This document shows positions 8,842 through 18,301 of a stretch of 21,050 nt of DNA, in pieces. How positions within the stretch are numbered: position 1 is the first letter of the stretch; each line of letters starts with the position of its first letter. The notes under the pieces were generated by a model. The model had not been told where the DNA came from, ran no database searches, and was given only the letters and a program-made list of their open reading frames with translations. The position numbers were made by a program, and so were the translations under genes. This stretch comes from Pseudomonadota bacterium (GTDB lineage Bacteria > Pseudomonadota > Gammaproteobacteria > Xanthomonadales > Xanthomonadaceae), in assembly GCA_023423605.1 (NCBI GenBank), contig JAFAFF010000235.1, forward strand, positions 1 to 21,050. The letters are read 5' to 3'.

Positions 8842-10680
8842 CTATTCCACGGTCACGCTCTTGGCCAGGTTGCGCGGCTTGTCGACATCGGTGCCTCGCG
8901 CCAATGCCGTGTGGTACGCCAGCAGCTGCACCGGGATGGTGTGCACGATGGGGCTGAGCACGCCCGCATGGCGCGGGGTGCGGATCACGTGCACGCCTTC
9001 CGATGCGCTGAAGTTGCTGTCCTGGTCGGTGAACACGAACAGTTCGCCACCGCGTGCACGTACTTCCTGCATGTTCGATTTCACCTTCTCCAGCAGGGCA
9101 TCATTCGGTGCGATCACCACCACCGGCATGTCCTCGTCCACCAGTGCCAGCGGACCATGCTTCAGCTCGCCGGCCGGGTAGGCCTCGGCATGGATGTAGG
9201 AGATTTCCTTGAGCTTGAGCGCACCTTCCAGCGCGATCGGATAATGCAGGCCGCGGCCGAGGAACAGCGCATTGGACTTGCGCGCGAAGCGCTCTGCCCA
9301 CGCCGCGATCTGCGGTTCCAGGTTCAGCGCATGCTGCACGCTGCCCGGAAGGAAGCGCAGCTGCTCCAGGTAATCCGCTTCCTGCGCGGCATCGATGCGG
9401 CCATGCAGCTTGCCCAGCACCACCGTGAGCTGGAACAGCGCCGCCAGCTGAGTGGTGAACGCCTTGGTGGAAGCCACGCCGATTTCCGCACCGGCGCGCG
9501 TGTAGCAGACCAGCTCACTGGCTCGCGGAATGGCGCTTTCCGGCACGTTGCAGATCGACAGCGTATGTGCGTGGCCCAGCGACCTGGCGTACTTCAGCGC
9601 TTCCATCGTATCCAGCGTTTCGCCGGACTGGGAGATGGTCACGATCAGGTGCCTGGGGTTGGCATACGCGGCGCGGTAACGGTATTCGCTGGCAATCTCC
9701 ACGCTGCAGGGCAGGCCAGCGATGGATTCGATCCAGTAACGCGCGGTCAGTCCGGCGTAGTAACTGGTGCCGCAGGCCAGGATCTGCACGCCTTCGATGC
9801 CGGCCAGCACCGTCCCGGCGTTCCTGCCGAACAGCTCCGCCGGAAAGCCGCCGGCATCGATTGCCGCTTCCAGGGTGTCGCCCAGCGCGCGCGGCTGCTC
9901 GTGGATTTCCTTCTGCATGAAGTGCCGGTAAGGACCAAGCTCCAGCGAAGCCAGCGACACATCGGACAGATGCACCTCGCGCTGCACCGGCATATCCGCA
10001 GCGTCATACACCTGCACGCCATCGCGGCGCACATCGGCGGTGTCGCCTTCCTCCAGGAAGATCACCTTGCGCGTAGAGGAGACAATGGCTGACACGTCCG
10101 AAGCCACGAAATTCTCGCCCTCGCCCACCCCCACCAGCAGGGGACAGCCCATGCGCGCGCAGACGAAATGATCCGGCTCGGCGCGGCTCATCACCGCCAG
10201 CGCATAGGCGCCGGTGAGCTCCTTCACCGTGCGCTGCAGCGCGTCAAGCAGGCTGCCACCCTGCTTGAGATTGTGGTGCATCAGGTGGGCGATGACTTCG
10301 GTGTCGGTCTGCGATTCAAAGACGTAGCCGAGCGCACGCAGGCGTTCGCGCTGCTCCTCGTGGTTTTCGATGATGCCGTTGTGCACCAGCGCGACACCCT
10401 CGCTGACGTGCGGATGCGCGTTGGCTTCGGTCACCCCGCCATGGGTGGCCCAGCGCGTGTGTCCAATGCCGAGCGTGCTGTGGAAGCCCTCCGCTTCGGC
10501 TGCGCCGGCCATCTCGGCGACGCGGCCGGTGCGGCGCACGCGGCGGATCTCGGCGGTGGCGCCCTTGTCCAGCACGGCGATGCCGGAGGAATCGTAACCG
10601 CGATATTCCAGGCGCTTCAGGCCTTCGATGAGTACCGGTACCACATCGCGATCCGCGATCGCACCCACGATTCCGCACAT
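8842..10680 (-). CDS. glmS: Glutamine--fructose-6-phosphate aminotransferase (isomerizing)
   Basis: A 612-residue cytoplasmic enzyme that makes glucosamine-6-phosphate from fructose-6-phosphate and glutamine, the committed step to UDP-GlcNAc. The N-terminal glutaminase domain begins [33 protein letters not shown], with Cys2 becoming the nucleophile after Met removal; HTRWATHG and HNGIIENH follow. Two SIS isomerase domains carry CGTSYYAG and SQSGETLDT. The C-terminus [20 protein letters not shown] is the conserved end that closes the active site. The length matches the family. GAGGAAA about nine bases before the ATG supports the start. The gene is divergent from the exporter operon, and its promoter shares a 206-bp regulatory region with it. 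No glmS ribozyme is seen in the short leader. Confidence 0.97.
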
Positions 10681-10710: not shown

Positions 10711-10716
10711 ATTCTA
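10711..10716 (-). promoter_or_regulatory. -10 element of the glmS promoter
   Basis: TAGAAT on the minus strand lies 30 bp before the glmS ATG. The expected -35 region (about 10734-10739) has no clear hexamer. It abuts the outermost TGTCCGC half-site at 10742-10748. Confidence 0.45.
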
Positions 10717-10741
10717 GCGTGGGTGCCGGACCGGGACGGCC

Positions 10742-10794
10742 TGTCCGCTTAACGAAAGTGTCCGCGACGTTGTCCGCGGACACGCGGACACTTT
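10742..10794. promoter_or_regulatory. Compound palindrome: probable upstream activator site for the NtrC-type regulator
   Basis: A perfect 12-bp palindrome, TGTCCGCGGACA (10771-10782), sits inside a larger inverted repeat. Its outer arms are AAAGTGTCCGCG (10755-10766) and CGCGGACACTTT (10783-10794), a perfect 12-bp match. A further TGTCCGC half-site is at 10742-10748, giving five half-sites in all. It lies about 50-90 bp upstream of the sigma-54 promoter, where enhancer-binding proteins bind as dimers or higher oligomers. The obvious candidate binder is the regulator encoded at 15615-16958. Confidence 0.7.
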
Positions 10795-10805
10795 TCGCCA
10801 CCCCG

Positions 10806-10818
10806 CAAATCGCTGATT
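10806..10818 (-). promoter_or_regulatory. IHF-like site between the activator palindrome and the sigma-54 promoter
   Basis: The minus strand reads AATCAGCGATTTG, matching 12 of 13 positions of the IHF consensus WATCAANNNNTTR. It lies in an AT-rich stretch between the palindrome and the -24/-12 element, where IHF bends DNA at many sigma-54 promoters. The consensus is degenerate, so this rests largely on position. Confidence 0.45.
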
Positions 10819-10834
10819 TAAATGGGAAAAAATC

Positions 10835-10850
10835 TGGCACGTTCCCTGCA
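10835..10850 (+). promoter_or_regulatory. Sigma-54 (RpoN) -24/-12 promoter of the exporter operon
   Basis: TGGCACGTTCCCTGCA matches the consensus TGGCACG-N4-TTGCW at every defined base except one (C for the first T of the -12 half). The invariant GG (10836-10837) and GC (10848-10849) are exactly 10 bp apart. Transcription would begin near 10861, about 26 bases before the ATG at 10887. Confidence 0.82.
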
Positions 10851-10886
10851 TTGTCTTCCAGCAGTTCCATCCATCCAGGCCCTTCG

Positions 10887-12164
10887 ATGATCCGCGACAC
10901 TTCCGCCCAGGACCAGATTGTTTCCACAACGCCCCGCAGCGCCGCCGCCGGCGCGTGGCAGCGCTGGCGCTGGCCCGCGCTCATCGCCCTTGTGGTGGTG
11001 GCCGGCATCGCCTTCGCCATCCATGCCTGGCTCAACGCCAGCCGCTCGTTCGACAGCAGCCGGGTACGCATCGCGCAGGTGCAGCGTGGCGACCTGGTGC
11101 GCGACATCGCCGCCGATGGCCGGGTGATCGCCGCCAACAGCCCGGTGCTGTATGCGATCTCGGCCGGCACGGTGGACCTGAAGGTGGTCGCCGGCGACGT
11201 GGTGAAGAAGGGCCAGGAACTGGCGATCATCGACAGCCCCGAACTGCGCAGCAAGCTTGCGCAGGAGGAAGCCACGCTTGCGGGCCTGGAAGCCGAAGCC
11301 AGCCGTGCCGCCCTGGATGCCACCCTGGCACGCGCGAAATCGCGCAAGGACACCGACCAGGCCAACATCGAGCGCCAGGCCGCCGAGCGCGACCTGCAGC
11401 GCTACCAGCGCGGCTTCGACGGCGGCGCGGTGCCGCAGATCGATCTGGCCAAGGCCCAGGACAGCATGAAGAAGGCCGACATCGAGTTGGCCAACGCCCG
11501 CACCGATGCACGCCTGCAGGGCCAGGGCGCCGATCTGGACGCACGCAACAAGCGCCTGCTGGCCGACCGCCAGCGCGCGGTGGTGGCCGAAGTCCGACGC
11601 CAGGTGGATGCACTGACCCTGCGTGCGCCGTTCGATGGCCAGGTCGGTCAGGTACAGGCCACCCAGCACACCAATGTTGCCGCCAACGCGCCGGTGCTGG
11701 GCGTGGTGGACCTGTCCAACTTCGAGATCGAGATCAAGGTGCCGGAAAGCTTCGCCCGCGATCTGGCCATCGCCATGCCGGCACAGCTGACCAGTGGCAG
11801 CGGGCAACCGTTCGCTGGCGAGATCAGCGCGGTCTCGCCGGAGGTGGTCAACGGTGAGGTGAATGCCCGCGTGCGCTTCGCCGACAAGCAGCCGGCCGGC
11901 CTGCGCCAGAGCCAGCGCATGTCCGTGCGCGTGCTGCTGGATACCCGCCACGACGTCATGAAGGTCGAGCGCGGTCCGTTCGTCGAACAGGGCAACGGCC
12001 AGGCCTACGTGATGGACGGAAACACCGCGGTGCGCCGCCCGGTGGAGCTCGGCGTGAGCAGCCTGGGCGAAGTGGAAATCCTGTCCGGCGTGCAGCCGGG
12101 CGATCGCATCGTGGTCGCCGGCAGCGACCTCTTCGGCGACGCCGAACGCGTCTCCGTCAACTGA
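10887..12164 (+). CDS. HlyD/MacA-type periplasmic adaptor of an ABC exporter
   Basis: A 425-residue membrane-fusion protein with a short cytoplasmic N-terminus and one membrane anchor at about residues 30-47 (PALIALVVVAGIAFAIHA). A biotinyl-lipoyl half follows (about 60-110, VLYAISAGTVDLKVVAGDVVKKGQELAIIDSPEL), then an alpha-helical hairpin rich in Ala/Gln/Arg/Glu (about 115-235), the second lipoyl half (LRAPFDGQVGQV), a beta-barrel and a membrane-proximal domain ending VQPGDRIVVAGSDLF. It should link the inner-membrane transporter to an outer-membrane channel. The frame is open upstream to 10719, but that extension runs through the sigma-54 promoter, so the ATG at 10887 is the sensible start although its ribosome binding site is weak. 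It is the first gene of the putative operon; 31 bp separate it from the ATPase gene. Confidence 0.9.
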   Translation: MIRDTSAQDQIVSTTPRSAAAGAWQRWRWPALIALVVVAGIAFAIHAWLNASRSFDSSRVRIAQVQRGDLVRDIAADGRVIAANSPVLYAISAGTVDLKVVAGDVVKKGQELAIIDSPELRSKLAQEEATLAGLEAEASRAALDATLARAKSRKDTDQANIERQAAERDLQRYQRGFDGGAVPQIDLAKAQDSMKKADIELANARTDARLQGQGADLDARNKRLLADRQRAVVAEVRRQVDALTLRAPFDGQVGQVQATQHTNVAANAPVLGVVDLSNFEIEIKVPESFARDLAIAMPAQLTSGSGQPFAGEISAVSPEVVNGEVNARVRFADKQPAGLRQSQRMSVRVLLDTRHDVMKVERGPFVEQGNGQAYVMDGNTAVRRPVELGVSSLGEVEILSGVQPGDRIVVAGSDLFGDAERVSVN

Positions 12165-12195: not shown

Positions 12196-12912
<717 letters not shown>

Positions 12913-12920
12913 GGTTGCCC

Positions 12921-14222
12921 ATGTTCGCCTACTACGCCCGCCTGGCCGTACGCAGCTTCCGCCGCAACAAGGTACTCACCGCGCTGATGGTGGTCGCCAT
13001 CGCGTTGGGCATCGGCGCTTCGATGACCACCCTGACCGTCTTCCACGTACTGTCCGGAGATCCCATTCCGGGCAAGAGCGAACGGCTGTTCTACGCCCAG
13101 GTGGACCCGCGTCCACGCAACGGTTATGTCGCCGGCGAGGAACCGGAAACGCAGATGACCCGCTTCGATGCCGAAGCCCTGCTGCGTGGCCGGCACGCCG
13201 AACGCCAGGCGATGATGAGCGGCGGCGCGGCCACCATCGAACCGGAAAACGCCAACCTCAAGCCCTTCAGCGTGGACACCCGCTGGACTTCGGCGGACTT
13301 CTTCCCGATGTTCGAGGTGCCCATGCAGTACGGCCGGCCCTGGACACGCGAGGACGACGAAGGACGCGCGCGGGTGGCGGTGATTTCCAGGATGCTGAAC
13401 GACAAGCTGTTCAATGGTGCCGACAGCGTGGGCCGCGAGCTGCACGTCAACGGCCACGTACTGCGCATCGTCGGCGTGCTCCGGGACTGGAAACCGCAAC
13501 CCAGCTTCTTCGACCTGACGTTGGGAAGTTTCGGCCGTGACGAGGACATCATCGCGCCGATCTCCACCGCCCTGGACCTGCAGCTGGGCAGCAACGGCAA
13601 CATGAACTGCTTCGGCGAGAACCCCAACGACGACAGCTACTCGGTGAACGCGCCCTGCGCCTGGATCCAGTACTGGGCGGAGATGGACCCCTCGAAGGCT
13701 GACGAATATCGCCAGTACCTGGTGAACTATTCCAACCAGCAACGCGAAGGTGGACGCTTCGAGCGCCCGGCCAACGTGCGGCTGCGCAATGTCATGGACT
13801 GGCTGGATTTCAACGGTGCGGTACCCAGCGACGTGCGGCTGCAGATGTGGCTGGCCCTGGGTTTCCTGGTCGTCTGCCTGATCAATACCGTTGGCCTGCT
13901 GCTGGCCAAGTTCCTGCGCCGCAGCGGCGAGATCGGCGTGCGGCGTGCACTGGGTGCAAGCCGCGGACAGATCTTCCTGCAGTGCGTGGTGGAGGCCGGT
14001 GCAGTGGGCGTGGTGGGCGGGCTGCTCGGCCTGGGACTGGCGGCGCTGGGCTTGTATGCGGTACGCCAGCAACCGGTGGAATACGCAACCCTGGCGCACC
14101 TGGACGGCAGCATGCTGCTGCTGGCGCTTGGCATGACCCTGCTGGCCAGCCTGGCCGCCGGCTTCCTGCCTGCCTGGCGCGCCATGCAGGTGACCCCGGC
14201 CATCCAGCTCAAATCGCAGTAA
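12921..14222 (+). CDS. MacB/FtsX-type ABC permease, subunit 1
   Basis: About 433 residues with the MacB topology. TM1 is near residues 18-40, followed by a periplasmic MacB_PCD-type domain of about 265 residues. TM2-TM4 lie near 310-331, 351-381 and 397-417, with the FtsX-family cytoplasmic motif RRSGEIGVRRALGASRGQIF between TM2 and TM3. The C-terminus (FLPAWRAMQVTPAIQLKSQ) is the usual family end. The periplasmic domain contains Cys230 and Cys246, flanking an Asn/Asp-rich loop and well placed for a disulfide. A GTG at 12909 overlapping the ATPase stop would add four residues; the ATG at 12921 was preferred because GTGAGG lies just upstream. It probably pairs with the next gene product as a heterodimer. 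The transported substrate is unknown. Confidence 0.9.
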   Translation: MFAYYARLAVRSFRRNKVLTALMVVAIALGIGASMTTLTVFHVLSGDPIPGKSERLFYAQVDPRPRNGYVAGEEPETQMTRFDAEALLRGRHAERQAMMSGGAATIEPENANLKPFSVDTRWTSADFFPMFEVPMQYGRPWTREDDEGRARVAVISRMLNDKLFNGADSVGRELHVNGHVLRIVGVLRDWKPQPSFFDLTLGSFGRDEDIIAPISTALDLQLGSNGNMNCFGENPNDDSYSVNAPCAWIQYWAEMDPSKADEYRQYLVNYSNQQREGGRFERPANVRLRNVMDWLDFNGAVPSDVRLQMWLALGFLVVCLINTVGLLLAKFLRRSGEIGVRRALGASRGQIFLQCVVEAGAVGVVGGLLGLGLAALGLYAVRQQPVEYATLAHLDGSMLLLALGMTLLASLAAGFLPAWRAMQVTPAIQLKSQ

Positions 14223-14243: not shown

Positions 14244-15458
14244 ATGGACATCCGCCCCATCCTCAGCACACTGCGCCGGCACAAGACCGCTGCCGCCCTG
14301 ATCGTGCTGGAAATCGCGCTGACCTGCGCCATCGTATGCAACGCGCTGTTCCTGGTCAGCCAGCGCATCGACAAGATCAGCCTGCCCAGTGGCATCGCCG
14401 AGAGCGAACTGGTGATGGTGCGCGTGAGCGGCATCGGCAAGCAGACCAACGCCATGGCCCGCACCCGCGAAGACCTGGCCTCGCTGCGGGCACTGCCGGG
14501 CGTAAAGGCCGTCACCGTGATCAACCAGCTGCCGTTCCGCAACAGTTCGTCCAACAGCAGCATCTCCCGCAATCAGGAGCAGGAACGTCCAACCACCAGC
14601 GTGTCGTTGTACATGCTGTCCGAAGACGGCATGCGCACGATGGGCATGAACCTGGTCGCCGGGCGCGACTTCCAGCCCAGCGAGTACGTGGACCTGGATG
14701 ACGTGCTGAAGAGCGGCGGCAGGGACCAGGCCGTTCCGGTGATCATCAACCAGGCCGTGGCCGCCAAGATGGCACCGGACGGCAACGCGCTGGGCCAGAC
14801 CTACTACATGGGCCGCCAGCCACTGCATGTCATCGGCATCATCGACCACCTTGCAACGCCGACCGGCTGGAACAACAACCGTGTCGAATCCATGATCATG
14901 CCGGCACGTGCCACCTTCGGTTCCGGCATCTACATGCTGCGCACCGATCCGGCACGCCGCGACGAAGTGCTCAAGGGCGCGCTGGCGGCGCTGGAACGCA
15001 ACGATCCGAACCGCCTGGTCCGGGAAAAGCTCAGCTACGAAGACCAGCGCAAGGACTACTTCAAGAATGACCGGGCGATGGTCGGCCTGCTGGTAACGGT
15101 GTGCGTGGCGCTGCTGGTGGTGACTGCACTGGGCATCGTCGGCCTGGCCAGTTTCTGGGTGCAGCAGCGCAGCAAGCAGATCGGCATCCGCCGTGCGCTG
15201 GGCGCTACCCGCGGCCAGATCCTGCGCTACTTCCAGACCGAGAACTTCCTGCTGGCCACGCTGGGCATCGTACTGGGCATGCTGGCGGCCTATGCGATCA
15301 ACCTGGCGCTGATGAACCAGTACGAGCTGCCACGCATGCCGCTGATCTATCTGCCGGTGGGTGCGGTGCTGCTGTGGCTGCTCGGCCAGGCGGCCGTATT
15401 GGGGCCAGCGCGGCGCGCCGCGGCGGTGCCACCAGCCGTCGCCACCCGCGGCACCTGA
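14244..15458 (+). CDS. MacB/FtsX-type ABC permease, subunit 2
   Basis: A 404-residue paralogue-like partner of the preceding permease with the same four-TM layout. TM1 is near 16-38, a periplasmic domain spans about 40-275, and three C-terminal membrane segments start near residue 278. The FtsX motif QQRSKQIGIRRALGATRGQILRYF follows TM2. Sequence similarity to subunit 1 is limited to the membrane and coupling regions. The periplasmic part differs (Ser/Asn-rich FRNSSSNSSISRNQEQERP around residues 100-115) and lacks the cysteine pair. Two distinct permeases with one ATPase suggest an asymmetric heterodimer. GAGGAC before the ATG supports the start; 21 bp separate it from subunit 1. A hairpin and a SMAG element lie between it and the regulatory genes. 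Confidence 0.9.
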   Translation: MDIRPILSTLRRHKTAAALIVLEIALTCAIVCNALFLVSQRIDKISLPSGIAESELVMVRVSGIGKQTNAMARTREDLASLRALPGVKAVTVINQLPFRNSSSNSSISRNQEQERPTTSVSLYMLSEDGMRTMGMNLVAGRDFQPSEYVDLDDVLKSGGRDQAVPVIINQAVAAKMAPDGNALGQTYYMGRQPLHVIGIIDHLATPTGWNNNRVESMIMPARATFGSGIYMLRTDPARRDEVLKGALAALERNDPNRLVREKLSYEDQRKDYFKNDRAMVGLLVTVCVALLVVTALGIVGLASFWVQQRSKQIGIRRALGATRGQILRYFQTENFLLATLGIVLGMLAAYAINLALMNQYELPRMPLIYLPVGAVLLWLLGQAAVLGPARRAAAVPPAVATRGT

Positions 15459-15484: not shown

Positions 15485-15520
15485 GCAGCCATCGCCGGGC
15501 CATGCCCGGCGGATGGCTGC
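15485..15520. terminator. Strong hairpin after the exporter genes
   Basis: A 16-bp stem (GCAGCCATCGCCGGGC against GCCCGGCGGATGGCTGC, one bulged base) with a CAT loop lies 26 bp after the second permease gene. It has no T-run. It may attenuate transcription into the regulator genes or protect the exporter mRNA 3' end. Confidence 0.5.
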
Positions 15521-15529
15521 GGCCCCGGA

Positions 15530-15552
15530 AGCCGGGCAGAGCCCGGCTCTAC
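15530..15552 (-). repeat. SMAG (GTAG-headed REP) element inside the exporter/regulator gap
   Basis: An inverted copy: read on the minus strand it starts GTAGAGCCGGGC-TCT-GCCCGGCT. It lies between the permease gene and the response-regulator gene, 10 bp after the long hairpin. It is identical in sequence to the copies at 18298-18355. Confidence 0.85.
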
Positions 15553-15614
15553 GATGGCACCTCCGCCGTGCAGGGGCCGCAGTCCGCCCCCCTTCCCTCA
15601 TACAGAACCCGTGC

Positions 15615-16958
15615 ATGCCTGCGATCCTGATCATCGATGACAACACCAGCGTGGGCACCGCGCTGGACGTGCTGTTCTCGCTGCACGACATCGATACCGT
15701 GCACGCGCATTCGCCAGCCGAAGGCCTTGCGCTGCTGCAGGACCACCCCGTGGACCTGGTGATCCAGGACATGAACTTCAGCGAGGACACCACCTCCGGC
15801 GAAGAAGGCGAAGCCTTGTTCGCCCGCATCCGGCAGCAGCATCCGGACCTGCCGGTGATTCTGCTCACGGCGTGGACGCATCTCAGCAGCGCGGTGGATC
15901 TGGTCAAGGCCGGCGCCGCCGATTACCTGGCCAAGCCCTGGGATGACCGCAAGCTGCTGACCACGGTCAACAACCTGCTGGAACTTTCCGAAGCCCGGCG
16001 CGAACTGGACCATCGGCGCCAGCGCGAACGGCGCCAGCGCGATGACCTGCAGCAACGCTACAACCTGTGCGATGCCGTGTTCGCCGACCCCGCCAGCGAG
16101 CGGGTGATCGCGCTGGCCTGCCAGGTGGCACGTTCGCCGCTGCCGGTACTCATCACCGGTCCGAATGGCGCGGGCAAGGAAAAGATCGCGCAGATCATCC
16201 AGGCCAATTCGCCGATGGCCAAGGGACCGTTCGTGACGGTGAACTGCGGCGCACTGCCTTCCGAACTGATCGAGGCGGAGCTGTTTGGTGCCGATGCGGG
16301 GGCATACACCGGCGCCAACAAGGCACGCGAGGGCAAGTTCGAGGCCGCCGATGGCGGCACGCTGTTCCTGGACGAAATAGGCAACCTGCCGCTGGGCGGG
16401 CAGATGAAACTGCTGCGCGTGCTGGAAACCGGACGCTTCGAGCGCCTGGGTTCCAACCGCGAACGCCAGGTCACGGTACGCGTGGTCAGCGCCACCAATG
16501 CTGATCTGGCGTCGATGATCCGCGATGGCAGCTTCCGCGAGGATCTCTATTACCGCCTCAATACGGTGGAACTGGCGCTGCCGCCACTGACCGAGCGCCC
16601 GGGCGACATCGTGCCACTGGCCGAACGCTTCCTGTCCGGCGACAAGCCACTGTCGGCGGCTTCGGTGGCCGCGCTGAAACGGCATGCCTGGCCTGGCAAC
16701 GTGCGCGAGCTGCGCAACGTCATCCAGCGGGCCGAACTGCTGGCCACCGGCAACCGCATCGAAGTGGCCGACCTCAACCTGCCGCGTGCGCCGGCCAGCA
16801 CGCGCACGGCCACTCCGACGGCCGACCCGGACCGCCAGCGCATCGAGAGCGTACTGGCCAGCAACCACGGCATCATCGCGCAGGCCGCCGCCGAGCTGGG
16901 ACTGAGCCGGCAGGCGCTGTACCGTCGCATGGACCGGCATGGCATTCCACGCGAATGA
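15615..16958 (+). CDS. NtrC-family sigma-54-dependent response regulator
   Basis: A 447-residue transcription activator. The receiver domain (about 1-120) has the acidic pair Asp8/Asp9, phosphoacceptor Asp52 (VIQDMNF), Thr85 and Lys107. The AAA+ domain has Walker A GPNGAGKE (182-189), the sigma-54 contact loop GAYTGA (229-234, Tyr for the usual Phe), Walker B GGTLFLDE (247-254) and FREDLYYRLN. The C-terminal Fis-type helix-turn-helix ends AQAAAELGLSRQALYRRMDRHGI. Such proteins open sigma-54 promoters with ATP, and the promoter at 10835-10850 is the natural target. The frame is open further upstream through the SMAG repeat, but the ATG at 15615 starts exactly at the receiver fold (MPAILIIDDN). 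It overlaps the kinase gene by four bases (ATGA). Confidence 0.95.
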   Translation: MPAILIIDDNTSVGTALDVLFSLHDIDTVHAHSPAEGLALLQDHPVDLVIQDMNFSEDTTSGEEGEALFARIRQQHPDLPVILLTAWTHLSSAVDLVKAGAADYLAKPWDDRKLLTTVNNLLELSEARRELDHRRQRERRQRDDLQQRYNLCDAVFADPASERVIALACQVARSPLPVLITGPNGAGKEKIAQIIQANSPMAKGPFVTVNCGALPSELIEAELFGADAGAYTGANKAREGKFEAADGGTLFLDEIGNLPLGGQMKLLRVLETGRFERLGSNRERQVTVRVVSATNADLASMIRDGSFREDLYYRLNTVELALPPLTERPGDIVPLAERFLSGDKPLSAASVAALKRHAWPGNVRELRNVIQRAELLATGNRIEVADLNLPRAPASTRTATPTADPDRQRIESVLASNHGIIAQAAAELGLSRQALYRRMDRHGIPRE

Positions 16959-18301
16959 GGCTGCGATCGTTCACCTTCCGGTTGTTCCTGCGCCTGTTGC
17001 CGGTACTGGCGCTGGCTGCGGCATTGCCATGGATGCTGGCCTACTGGATGGATCGTGGCTGGCTGGTGGCGACGGTATCGACGGTCGTGCTGCTGGCACT
17101 GATGTGGTTCAGCCTGAGCCGCGCCACGTCCCCGGTACGGTCATTGATGCGCGCCCTTTCCGGCACCGTCAGCAGTTACCGCGATGGCGAGTTCAATTTC
17201 AGCGTGCACTGGGCCGGGCATGATGAGCTGGGCAACCTGGTGCAGGCCCATCGCGAACTGGGCGACGTGCTGCGCGCTCAACGGCAGAGCCTGGTGCAGC
17301 GCGAACTGCTGCTGGACACCATGGTGCAGAACACGCCGGTGGCGATGCTGCTGCTGGCCGATGGCGGCGATGGACTCGCGCGCGTGGTGTTCTCCAACCT
17401 CGCCGCGCGCAAGCTGCTGCATGGCGGCTGGAAACTGGAAGGCCGCCGCCTGGATGAGCTGCTGGAGCAGATGCCGGTGGCGCTGCGCGATGCCATTTCC
17501 CGCGGCGGCGACAGTCTGTTCGCGGTGCGCGACGAAGACAACGAGGAGGAGGACGATGAGCAGATCTACCATCTGTCGCGACGCGCATTCCACCTCAATG
17601 GGCGCCCGCACGACCTGCTGCTGATCCGCCTGCTCACCGCCGAACTGCGCCGGCAGGAAGTGCAGACCTGGAAGAAGGTGATCCGGGTGATCAGCCACGA
17701 GCTCAACAATTCACTTGCGCCGATCGCCTCGCTGGCGCATTCCGGCGGCGAACTGGTGAGGCGGGAACGCTTCGACCGCCTGCCGGAGATCTTCACCACC
17801 ATCGAAGACCGTGCCCGCCACCTGGAAGGGTTCATCCGCGGCTACGCGCGCTTTGCCAAGCTGCCGCAGCCCCAGTTGCAGACCGTGCACTGGGCGCCGT
17901 TCCTGGCAGGGCTGCAGCAGCAGATCCCGTTCGACATGGATGCCATCGCCGAGGATGTGCACAGCCGGGTGGACGTCGCCCAGTTGGGCCAGGCGCTGCT
18001 CAACCTGCTGAAGAACGCACATGAAGCCTGCGCCGAAGCGGATCCGCCGAACGAGGACGTGCGGGTGCAGCTGGGCCGCCTGCCGCAGTGGCTGCGGCTG
18101 GACATCCTGGACCGCGGCAAGGGCATGAACGAAGCAGTGCTGCAGAACGCCCTGATGCCGTTCTATTCCACCAAGCGCAACGGTACCGGCCTCGGCCTGG
18201 CGCTCACGCGCGAGATCATCGAAGCGCACGGTGGACGGATATCGCTGCAGAACCGCCCTGACGGCGGCCTTTGCGTATCGCTGCTGCTGCCAACCGCGTA
18301 G
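16955..18301 (+). CDS. Membrane histidine kinase of the NtrB/NtrY type, partner of the preceding regulator
   Basis: 448 residues. Two close membrane segments (about 10-30 and 37-54) leave a periplasmic loop of only a few residues. HAMP-like and PAS-like regions follow (about 55-110 and 115-225), the latter with an acidic run at 193-203. The phosphoacceptor His248 lies in ISHELNNSLAP, an NtrB/NtrY-class H-box. The ATPase domain has an N-box (NLLKNAHEA, 350-358), DRGKG (386-390), FYSTK and GTGLGL (410-415). With no real external domain it probably senses the membrane itself or the transporter state. The start overlaps the regulator stop and has no Shine-Dalgarno, implying translational coupling. 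The TAG stop is formed by the head of a SMAG element. Confidence 0.94.
   Translation: MRLRSFTFRLFLRLLPVLALAAALPWMLAYWMDRGWLVATVSTVVLLALMWFSLSRATSPVRSLMRALSGTVSSYRDGEFNFSVHWAGHDELGNLVQAHRELGDVLRAQRQSLVQRELLLDTMVQNTPVAMLLLADGGDGLARVVFSNLAARKLLHGGWKLEGRRLDELLEQMPVALRDAISRGGDSLFAVRDEDNEEEDDEQIYHLSRRAFHLNGRPHDLLLIRLLTAELRRQEVQTWKKVIRVISHELNNSLAPIASLAHSGGELVRRERFDRLPEIFTTIEDRARHLEGFIRGYARFAKLPQPQLQTVHWAPFLAGLQQQIPFDMDAIAEDVHSRVDVAQLGQALLNLLKNAHEACAEADPPNEDVRVQLGRLPQWLRLDILDRGKGMNEAVLQNALMPFYSTKRNGTGLGLALTREIIEAHGGRISLQNRPDGGLCVSLLLPTA

Follow-up and report, generated by a model that had tools for sequence, protein, structure and literature searches.

The window considered here, a stretch of 21,050 nucleotides from a member of the Xanthomonadaceae, carries on its plus strand a six-gene operon in which a putative ABC exporter is combined with regulatory genes. 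According to profile matches, complemented by hydropathy for the adaptor and the kinase and by alignment for the regulator, the genes encode, in this order, a HlyD/MacA-type periplasmic adaptor with one N-terminal membrane helix (10887–12164), an ABC ATPase of the LolD/MacB/DarD type (12196–12912), permease 1 (12909–14222) and permease 2 (14244–15458), both of the MacB_PCD plus FtsX architecture, an NtrC-type response regulator (15615–16958), and a histidine kinase with two membrane helices, a very short loop and a HELNN box (16955–18301). The operon is followed by glmU on the opposite strand. An earlier note on this DNA had let it end with the NtrC-family activator; its last gene is, however, the kinase gene, which had been missed and which shares 4 bp with the end of the regulator gene. 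None of the six operon genes codes for an outer-membrane channel. On the other side, glmS (8842–10680, minus strand) is a divergent neighbour sharing the regulatory region and is considered as context, not as a claimed target. Between permease 2 and the regulator, inverted sequences of the form GCCGGGC...GCCCGGC are found at 15495–15560, which we take to resemble a Stenotrophomonas REP element; the regulator gene may have an extra promoter near this stretch.

With its nearest regulator orthologs being 87–88% identical, the window is Stenotrophomonas-like. A scan yielded at least 548 relatives of the regulator, the best 80 of which were kept for locus comparison; the operon was also found in Betaproteobacteria. 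Across 65 Xanthomonadaceae loci, the median identity to the window was 88% for the ATPase, 79% for the regulator, and 66 and 61% for the permeases, the number of which ranges from 2 to 8 per operon among the relatives (the stretches with 7–8 exclude the ATPase end). Operons with 4–8 permease genes apparently contain one adaptor and one ATPase (e.g., L012, L022, L023, L026, L028–L030, L036, L045, L054, L057, L059), and their make-up suggests an amplification of substrate specificities. One contig labelled Bacillus subtilis (L024) is Stenotrophomonas-like in sequence and gene order and is, hence, a mislabelled or contaminated record.

MacA-MacB and LolCDE/ADOP-type ABC exporters belong to the type VII ABC superfamily, and the present exporter shares with them the HlyD/MacA adaptor, the LolD/MacB-like ATPase and the MacB_PCD-FtsX permeases. 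In contrast to the fused MacB, it has one gene for the ATPase and a further one for each of the two permeases. The adaptor is of the MacA/HlyD type found in MacAB; with 69.6 of 342 bits it stays under the cut-off of the MacA equivalog and is, thus, not MacA itself. The ATPase reaches 211.1 of 966 bits for the MacB equivalog and lacks the fusion to a permease, and the permeases reach 173.1 and 183.1 of 622.3 bits for the ADOP model TIGR03434 (NCBIfam). Since the MacA, MacB, LolD, LolC/E and ADOP models all remained under their cut-offs, an identification as MacAB itself, LolCDE or ADOP was rejected. The best match of the ATPase is DarD of the darobactin system DarB-DarC-DarD (NCBIfam), accompanied by weak matches of the adaptor to DarC and of a permease to DarB; however, these matches, too, lie under the respective cut-offs (252.9 of 375, 43 of 450 and 35 of 700 bits for DarD, DarC and DarB).

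Upstream of hlyD, a predicted sigma-54 promoter of the -24/-12 type, TGGCACG-TTCC-CTGCA (TGGCACGttccCTGCA; 10835–10850, plus strand), is recognizable by sequence, spacing and conservation in relatives. Its GG (10836–10837) and GC (10848–10849) are separated by exactly 10 nt, and 36 bp lie between its end and the hlyD start codon (ATG 10887); assuming the usual spacing rule, transcription would start near 10861 and produce a 26-nt leader. The -12 half, CTGCA, is one base away from the TTGCA consensus. A perfect TGGCACG-N4-YTGCW occurs once in the whole window, while three copies against 1.23 expected are found if up to one mismatch is allowed. The exact GG-N10-GC spacing reported earlier for this element was borne out, and it recurs upstream of hlyD in 70/70 testable regions (69 relatives and the window); eleven of the 80 loci were left out because the hlyD start is missing or unaligned (L026, L028, L029, L030, L036, L045, L054, L056, L057, L059, L066).

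Farther upstream, positions 10742–10790 are occupied by a predicted activator-binding array (no strand assigned) of five TGTCCG half-sites, which start at 10742, 10759 and 10771 on the plus strand and at 10777 and 10785 on the minus strand. Thus, five of the window's 22 half-sites (whole-window expectation 14.4) fall within 49 bp. Nested inverted repeats are present within the array, and its centre is the perfect palindrome TGTCCGCGGACA (10771–10782), the sole exact copy in the window; the nested palindrome described in the earlier note is, hence, real. With up to two mismatches, TGTCCGCGGACA is found twice against 1.69 expected, so that the 12-mer alone is little proof. In the genomes of six relatives, the exact 12-mer occurs at just 1–3 places each; since four of these ten places (L081–L084) are without a -24/-12 element within ~500 bp by the regular expression used, the palindrome alone was rejected as a mark of targets.

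The gap between the last GGACA and TGGCA measures 44 nt in the window, which is also the commonest value at exporters (26/70), and 43–44 nt at a second promoter present in relatives. A TGTC-N4-16-GACA expression finds no match in 11/70 regions, all of them among L065–L080, where GGACA half-sites are visible by eye. Likewise by eye, TGTCCG/CGGACA spacings are N0 and N8 at the exporter and mostly N4–N5 at the second promoter, so that a single dimer geometry would be insufficient for both. The arrangement shares with NtrC-type sigma-54 promoters such as those of glnA and zraP the upstream palindromes, an IHF-like site in between, the GG-N10-GC spacing and an activator encoded nearby. It differs from them in the TGTCCG half-site, in an array of five half-sites with more than one spacing and in its targets, i.e., an exporter plus, in relatives, a secreted-looking protein.

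Given its location between glmS and hlyD, the array might serve another DNA-binding protein, or glmS, with a different activator acting at the sigma-54 promoter. A conserved GCATTCTAGC at 10712–10717 reads TAGAAT on the minus strand and was noted by eye as a possible glmS -10 box; hence, the array could also affect glmS. However, similar arrays at equal distance precede promoters at trmL sites and at Betaproteobacterial loci without a glmS match, which makes a role as a glmS element unlikely, and the composite of array and promoter co-occurs with the regulator, so that we regard this explanation as a whole as very improbable.

Between array and promoter lies an IHF-like site, AATCAGCGATTTG (10806–10818, minus strand), which matches the consensus WATCAANNNNTTR at 12 of 13 positions. 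This score agrees with the earlier note, but it is not beyond chance on its own (shuffle p 0.067). Over the 70 regions, the best match is 13/13 in 21, 12 in 31 and 11 in 18 cases, at a mean shuffle p of ~0.10. Most Stenotrophomonas have an 11–12/13 match at about -29 on the minus strand, displaced by ~12 bp relative to the other genera. Most loci of Xanthomonas, Pseudoxanthomonas and Betaproteobacteria have it on the plus strand instead, starting 17–19 nt before TGGCA. An IHF bend site is plausible, but it is the weakest element of the control region.

Conservation is confined to distinct blocks. Averaged over 25 Stenotrophomonas-group sequences including the window, identity to the window reaches 1.00 in the palindrome, 0.99 in the -24 box and 0.97, 0.91 and 0.99 in the remaining half-site blocks, whereas the -12 box is less conserved (0.69). 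By comparison, the IHF stretch and the upstream stretch have values of 0.62 each, and the spacer stretches between and after the conserved blocks have 0.42, 0.52, 0.37, 0.59, 0.36 and 0.46. An exception among the spacers is TTAACGAAA (10749–10757), between the first two half-sites, which is conserved about like the half-sites (0.92). The proposed enhancer order—activator array, possible bend site, -24/-12 element—is conserved as a unit, and control of the operon by sigma-54 and the NtrC-type regulator is very likely.

The regulator, the presumed binder of the array, combines a receiver, an AAA domain with a GAFTGA-type loop and a Fis-type helix-turn-helix, as NtrC-type activators do. The loop reads GAYTGA in 80/80 orthologs (the best 80 of at least 548 relatives), and in the receiver, QDM around the presumed acceptor aspartate is kept. 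Between Xanthomonadaceae and Massilia, the Fis-type helix SRQALYRRM hardly varies, with one SRQAFYRRM and one sequence cut before the helix among the 80 orthologs; this agrees with a GGACA half-site that is constant as well. For the kinase of the window, which has a HELNN box, hydropathy points to two hydrophobic helices and a loop of ~4–8 residues, hence, to a kinase without a large periplasmic sensor; over the relatives, the helix count is rough, since 11/79 kinases have a miscalled start or show no helix up to residue 260. Kinases with such a short loop often perceive their signal via the membrane or via a transporter partner, and cell-envelope sensors are of this class. BceRS-BceAB is alike in that a short-loop membrane kinase adjoins a MacB-superfamily transporter; by contrast, the regulator here is NtrC-type and would work with sigma-54 rather than being OmpR-type, and the permeases are MacB_PCD-FtsX pairs.

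For a genome-wide view, a composite pattern (GTCCG, CGGACA, then TGGCA-N7-TGC at 35–65 nt) was searched in 149 genomes drawn from the family. It is present in 113/149 genomes as compared with 19/149 for a reversed-letter control. A regulator ortholog (E <= 1e-120) was found in 126/149 genomes, and the composite in 105/126 genomes with and 8/23 without such an ortholog (Fisher p 5e-6). The composite, thus, co-occurs with the regulator, which supports the earlier interpretation. The exceptions, these 8/23 and the 21/126 regulator-bearing genomes without the pattern, are probably due to a strict pattern and to assemblies that are incomplete.

The composite occupies 157 distinct places, of which 89 lie upstream of the regulator (4.6–16.5 kb, same strand), 39 just upstream of trmL (181–744 bp, same strand)—a gene we take from its sequence to be tRNA methyltransferase-like—and 29 elsewhere; 31 genomes have both main places. 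When checked against the rows of their own genomes, none of the 29 is just upstream of trmL (G120 and G013 are without a trmL match). Twelve of them were read: three precede exporters where a contig end cuts in or the regulator does not adjoin (G107, G010, G036), one a distant exporter (G052) and eight neither, including four with small ORFs of 76–101 aa downstream (G073, G100, G028, G039). In G011, G063 and G041, the exporter promoter follows the trmL match at a distance of 133, 192 and 370 bp, which makes the two targets neighbours.

Could all this be a chance resemblance, or a conserved but non-regulatory sequence? Single elements have modest odds, as the IHF match illustrates; nevertheless, the conserved footprint marks a control region beyond chance, and together with the concentration at two loci genome-wide and the reversed-pattern controls it led us to discard chance, leaving this explanation a practically negligible likelihood.

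The second locus shows the pattern in 18/18 chosen Stenotrophomonas- or Xanthomonas-like genomes, and in all of them (L106–L123) its first gene encodes a protein with a signal-peptide-like N-terminus, as judged by eye, and repeats of the form TLxxVQVRPSAxQ. Inspection covered, incompletely, 32 of the 39 trmL places or their like; 14 of the 39 genomes belong to the chosen 18. Similar repeat proteins occur in four more genomes (L098, L100, L103, L140), while ten other trmL sites (L091, L092, L096, L133–L139) have unrelated small ORFs of 54–84 aa, often with a hydrophobic N-terminus, which are putative genes; in the exception L136, the ORF frame continues into trmL. We infer a second promoter of this kind in the window's own genome, too. 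The same switch in front of a pump and of a small secreted-looking protein in many relatives suggests joint work of the two. Hence, of the dedicated response once proposed for the exporter, the switch itself stands as conserved, whereas the exporter is not its sole target. Downstream of trmL, L091, L092, L100 and L103 encode what is presumably an Ax21-like outer-membrane protein; none is found within the L106 stretch. Ax21 proteins occur in vesicles of S. maltophilia, according to PMC4396451.

A database search with the repeat protein returned 166 relatives. Among the 120 matches listed, none has a Pfam domain, and source names are "hypothetical" or missing, with few other labels; Pfam and PDB searches with the protein itself gave nothing above threshold. 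As judged from these searches, it belongs to no known family. Three homologs labelled Acinetobacter baumannii, nematode and Salmonella (P0002, P0003, P0036) are 94–100% identical to the Stenotrophomonas query and are probably contamination. In 33 aligned homologs, T-L-x4-V-R-P in the first and T-L-xx-V-x-V-R-P in the second repeat are invariant, and an AlphaFold2 model of low confidence (mean pLDDT 57.6) places helices between extended repeat motifs. Before the gene, ~110–135 nt downstream of the second promoter's -24 box, there is a near-invariant leader element, GGTGTACTACCTTACTACC (L106–L123), which looks like a GntR/YtrA operator (GGTG-N16-CACC), and through which a second regulator may act. 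In a paper on YtrA-type motifs (PMC4494728), no passage on Xanthomonas or Stenotrophomonas was found that would support the GntR/YtrA link.

The repeats are similar to the segment that carries the TonB box in TonB-dependent receptors, which we treat as a lead, not as a result. In its strict form, T[LM]xx[VI]x[VI], the motif has 2–4 copies in 33/33 repeat proteins. Among the receptors from a single relative, G001 (30 out of 55 Plug matches, scanned over 60 residues ending 12 residues into Plug), it occurs in 10/30 at a shuffle expectation of 0.33, one of the ten matches (L159) lying inside the Plug start, away from the usual place. A looser motif, picked after the data had been seen, gives 28/30 against 0.65. 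The residues after the motif differ, with VTG or VTA in many receptors versus VRP in the repeats.

Beyond the family, a looser pattern with an IHF core matched 11/15 genomes, mostly Betaproteobacteria, and 0/15 in the control. Five non-exporter matches were read. Two precede dienelactone-hydrolase-like proteins (L126, confirmed in Pfam, and L127, alike), two a metallopeptidase of the TldD/PmbA type (L128, confirmed likewise and with another gene of this kind behind it, and L129, alike), and one a beta-lactamase-fold protein (L130).

Taken together, we consider it quite probable that 10742–10850 is a sigma-54 control region whose array is bound by the operon's own regulator, driving the exporter operon and, in relatives, a second promoter, as part of an envelope-stress regulon. 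In this scheme, the short-loop kinase would phosphorylate the adjoining regulator (15615–16958), which would then bind the TGTCCG array; with IHF bending the intervening DNA, the regulator would contact RNA polymerase-sigma-54 at 10835–10850 and open it through its AAA domain, transcription being dependent on RpoN and IHF. Exporter and regulators would be co-produced, implying positive autoregulation; very likely, this regulator also drives the second, like-built promoter found elsewhere in the genomes of relatives, where the second protein would rise along with the pump. The signal could be a damaging compound within or close to the inner membrane. In response, the cell would make a tripartite pump that operates from the periplasm and, together with it, a secreted partner, with peptidases or hydrolases in this role in some Betaproteobacteria.

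As to what the pump expels, defence against an envelope-active compound is favoured, since the permeases are least conserved and number 2–8 per operon, and since the second promoters stand before genes for secreted-looking proteins, peptidases or hydrolases. Accordingly phrased, the exporter would expel a toxic compound, while the second target would be a protective partner—peptidases or hydrolases in Betaproteobacteria and a binding or decoy protein in Xanthomonadaceae. To this reading we give slightly less than an even chance. It accommodates the TldD/PmbA pair, the dienelactone-hydrolase-like and the beta-lactamase-fold proteins behind the Betaproteobacterial second sites, the variable permease number and a short-loop kinase as in cell-envelope sensors; however, the second-site enzymes differ among genomes, and some sites may be unrelated regulon members. 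Alternatively, the repeat protein could itself be the cargo, reaching the periplasm via Sec and being released outside by the pump, as in MacAB with periplasmic peptides. The common switch at both promoters, the repeats behind a signal-peptide-like N-terminus, the small secreted-looking ORFs at other trmL sites and the periplasmic mode of action of MacAB-type pumps would all fit, whereas permeases that evolve fastest and vary in number are at odds with well-conserved repeat units, and the Betaproteobacterial second sites that were read precede enzymes; we rate cargo as rather unlikely. The repeat protein might also be periplasmic and largely unfolded and occupy TonB via its 2–4 TonB-box-like repeats, so that a toxic compound is pumped out and TonB-dependent uptake is throttled at the same time. 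This is a long shot; if true, sigma-54 would govern a response of the "close the doors and bail out" kind.

The earlier note held that MacAB-type exporters are usually not described as sigma-54-controlled. However, a study of sigma-54 regulons reports an enrichment of COG1136 exporter ATPases in Opitutia (PMC12316311), and sigma-54 control of this exporter class is, thus, not unique. In other papers, sigma-54 is portrayed as a controller of the bacterial exterior (PMC3162934), a review lists three NtrC-family proteins of Xanthomonas oryzae as unstudied (PMC8657755), and RpoN of S. maltophilia is studied for flagella, with a main text containing neither "ABC" nor "NtrC" (PMC8229486). Within titles and the beginnings of abstracts, no account of the operator, regulon, signal or cargo was recognised, even though the regulator is present in most of the sampled genomes of the family and the operon extends to Betaproteobacteria. 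With a defined operator and a compact regulon, the question is directly testable, and it links the pump to a family of secreted-looking repeat proteins.
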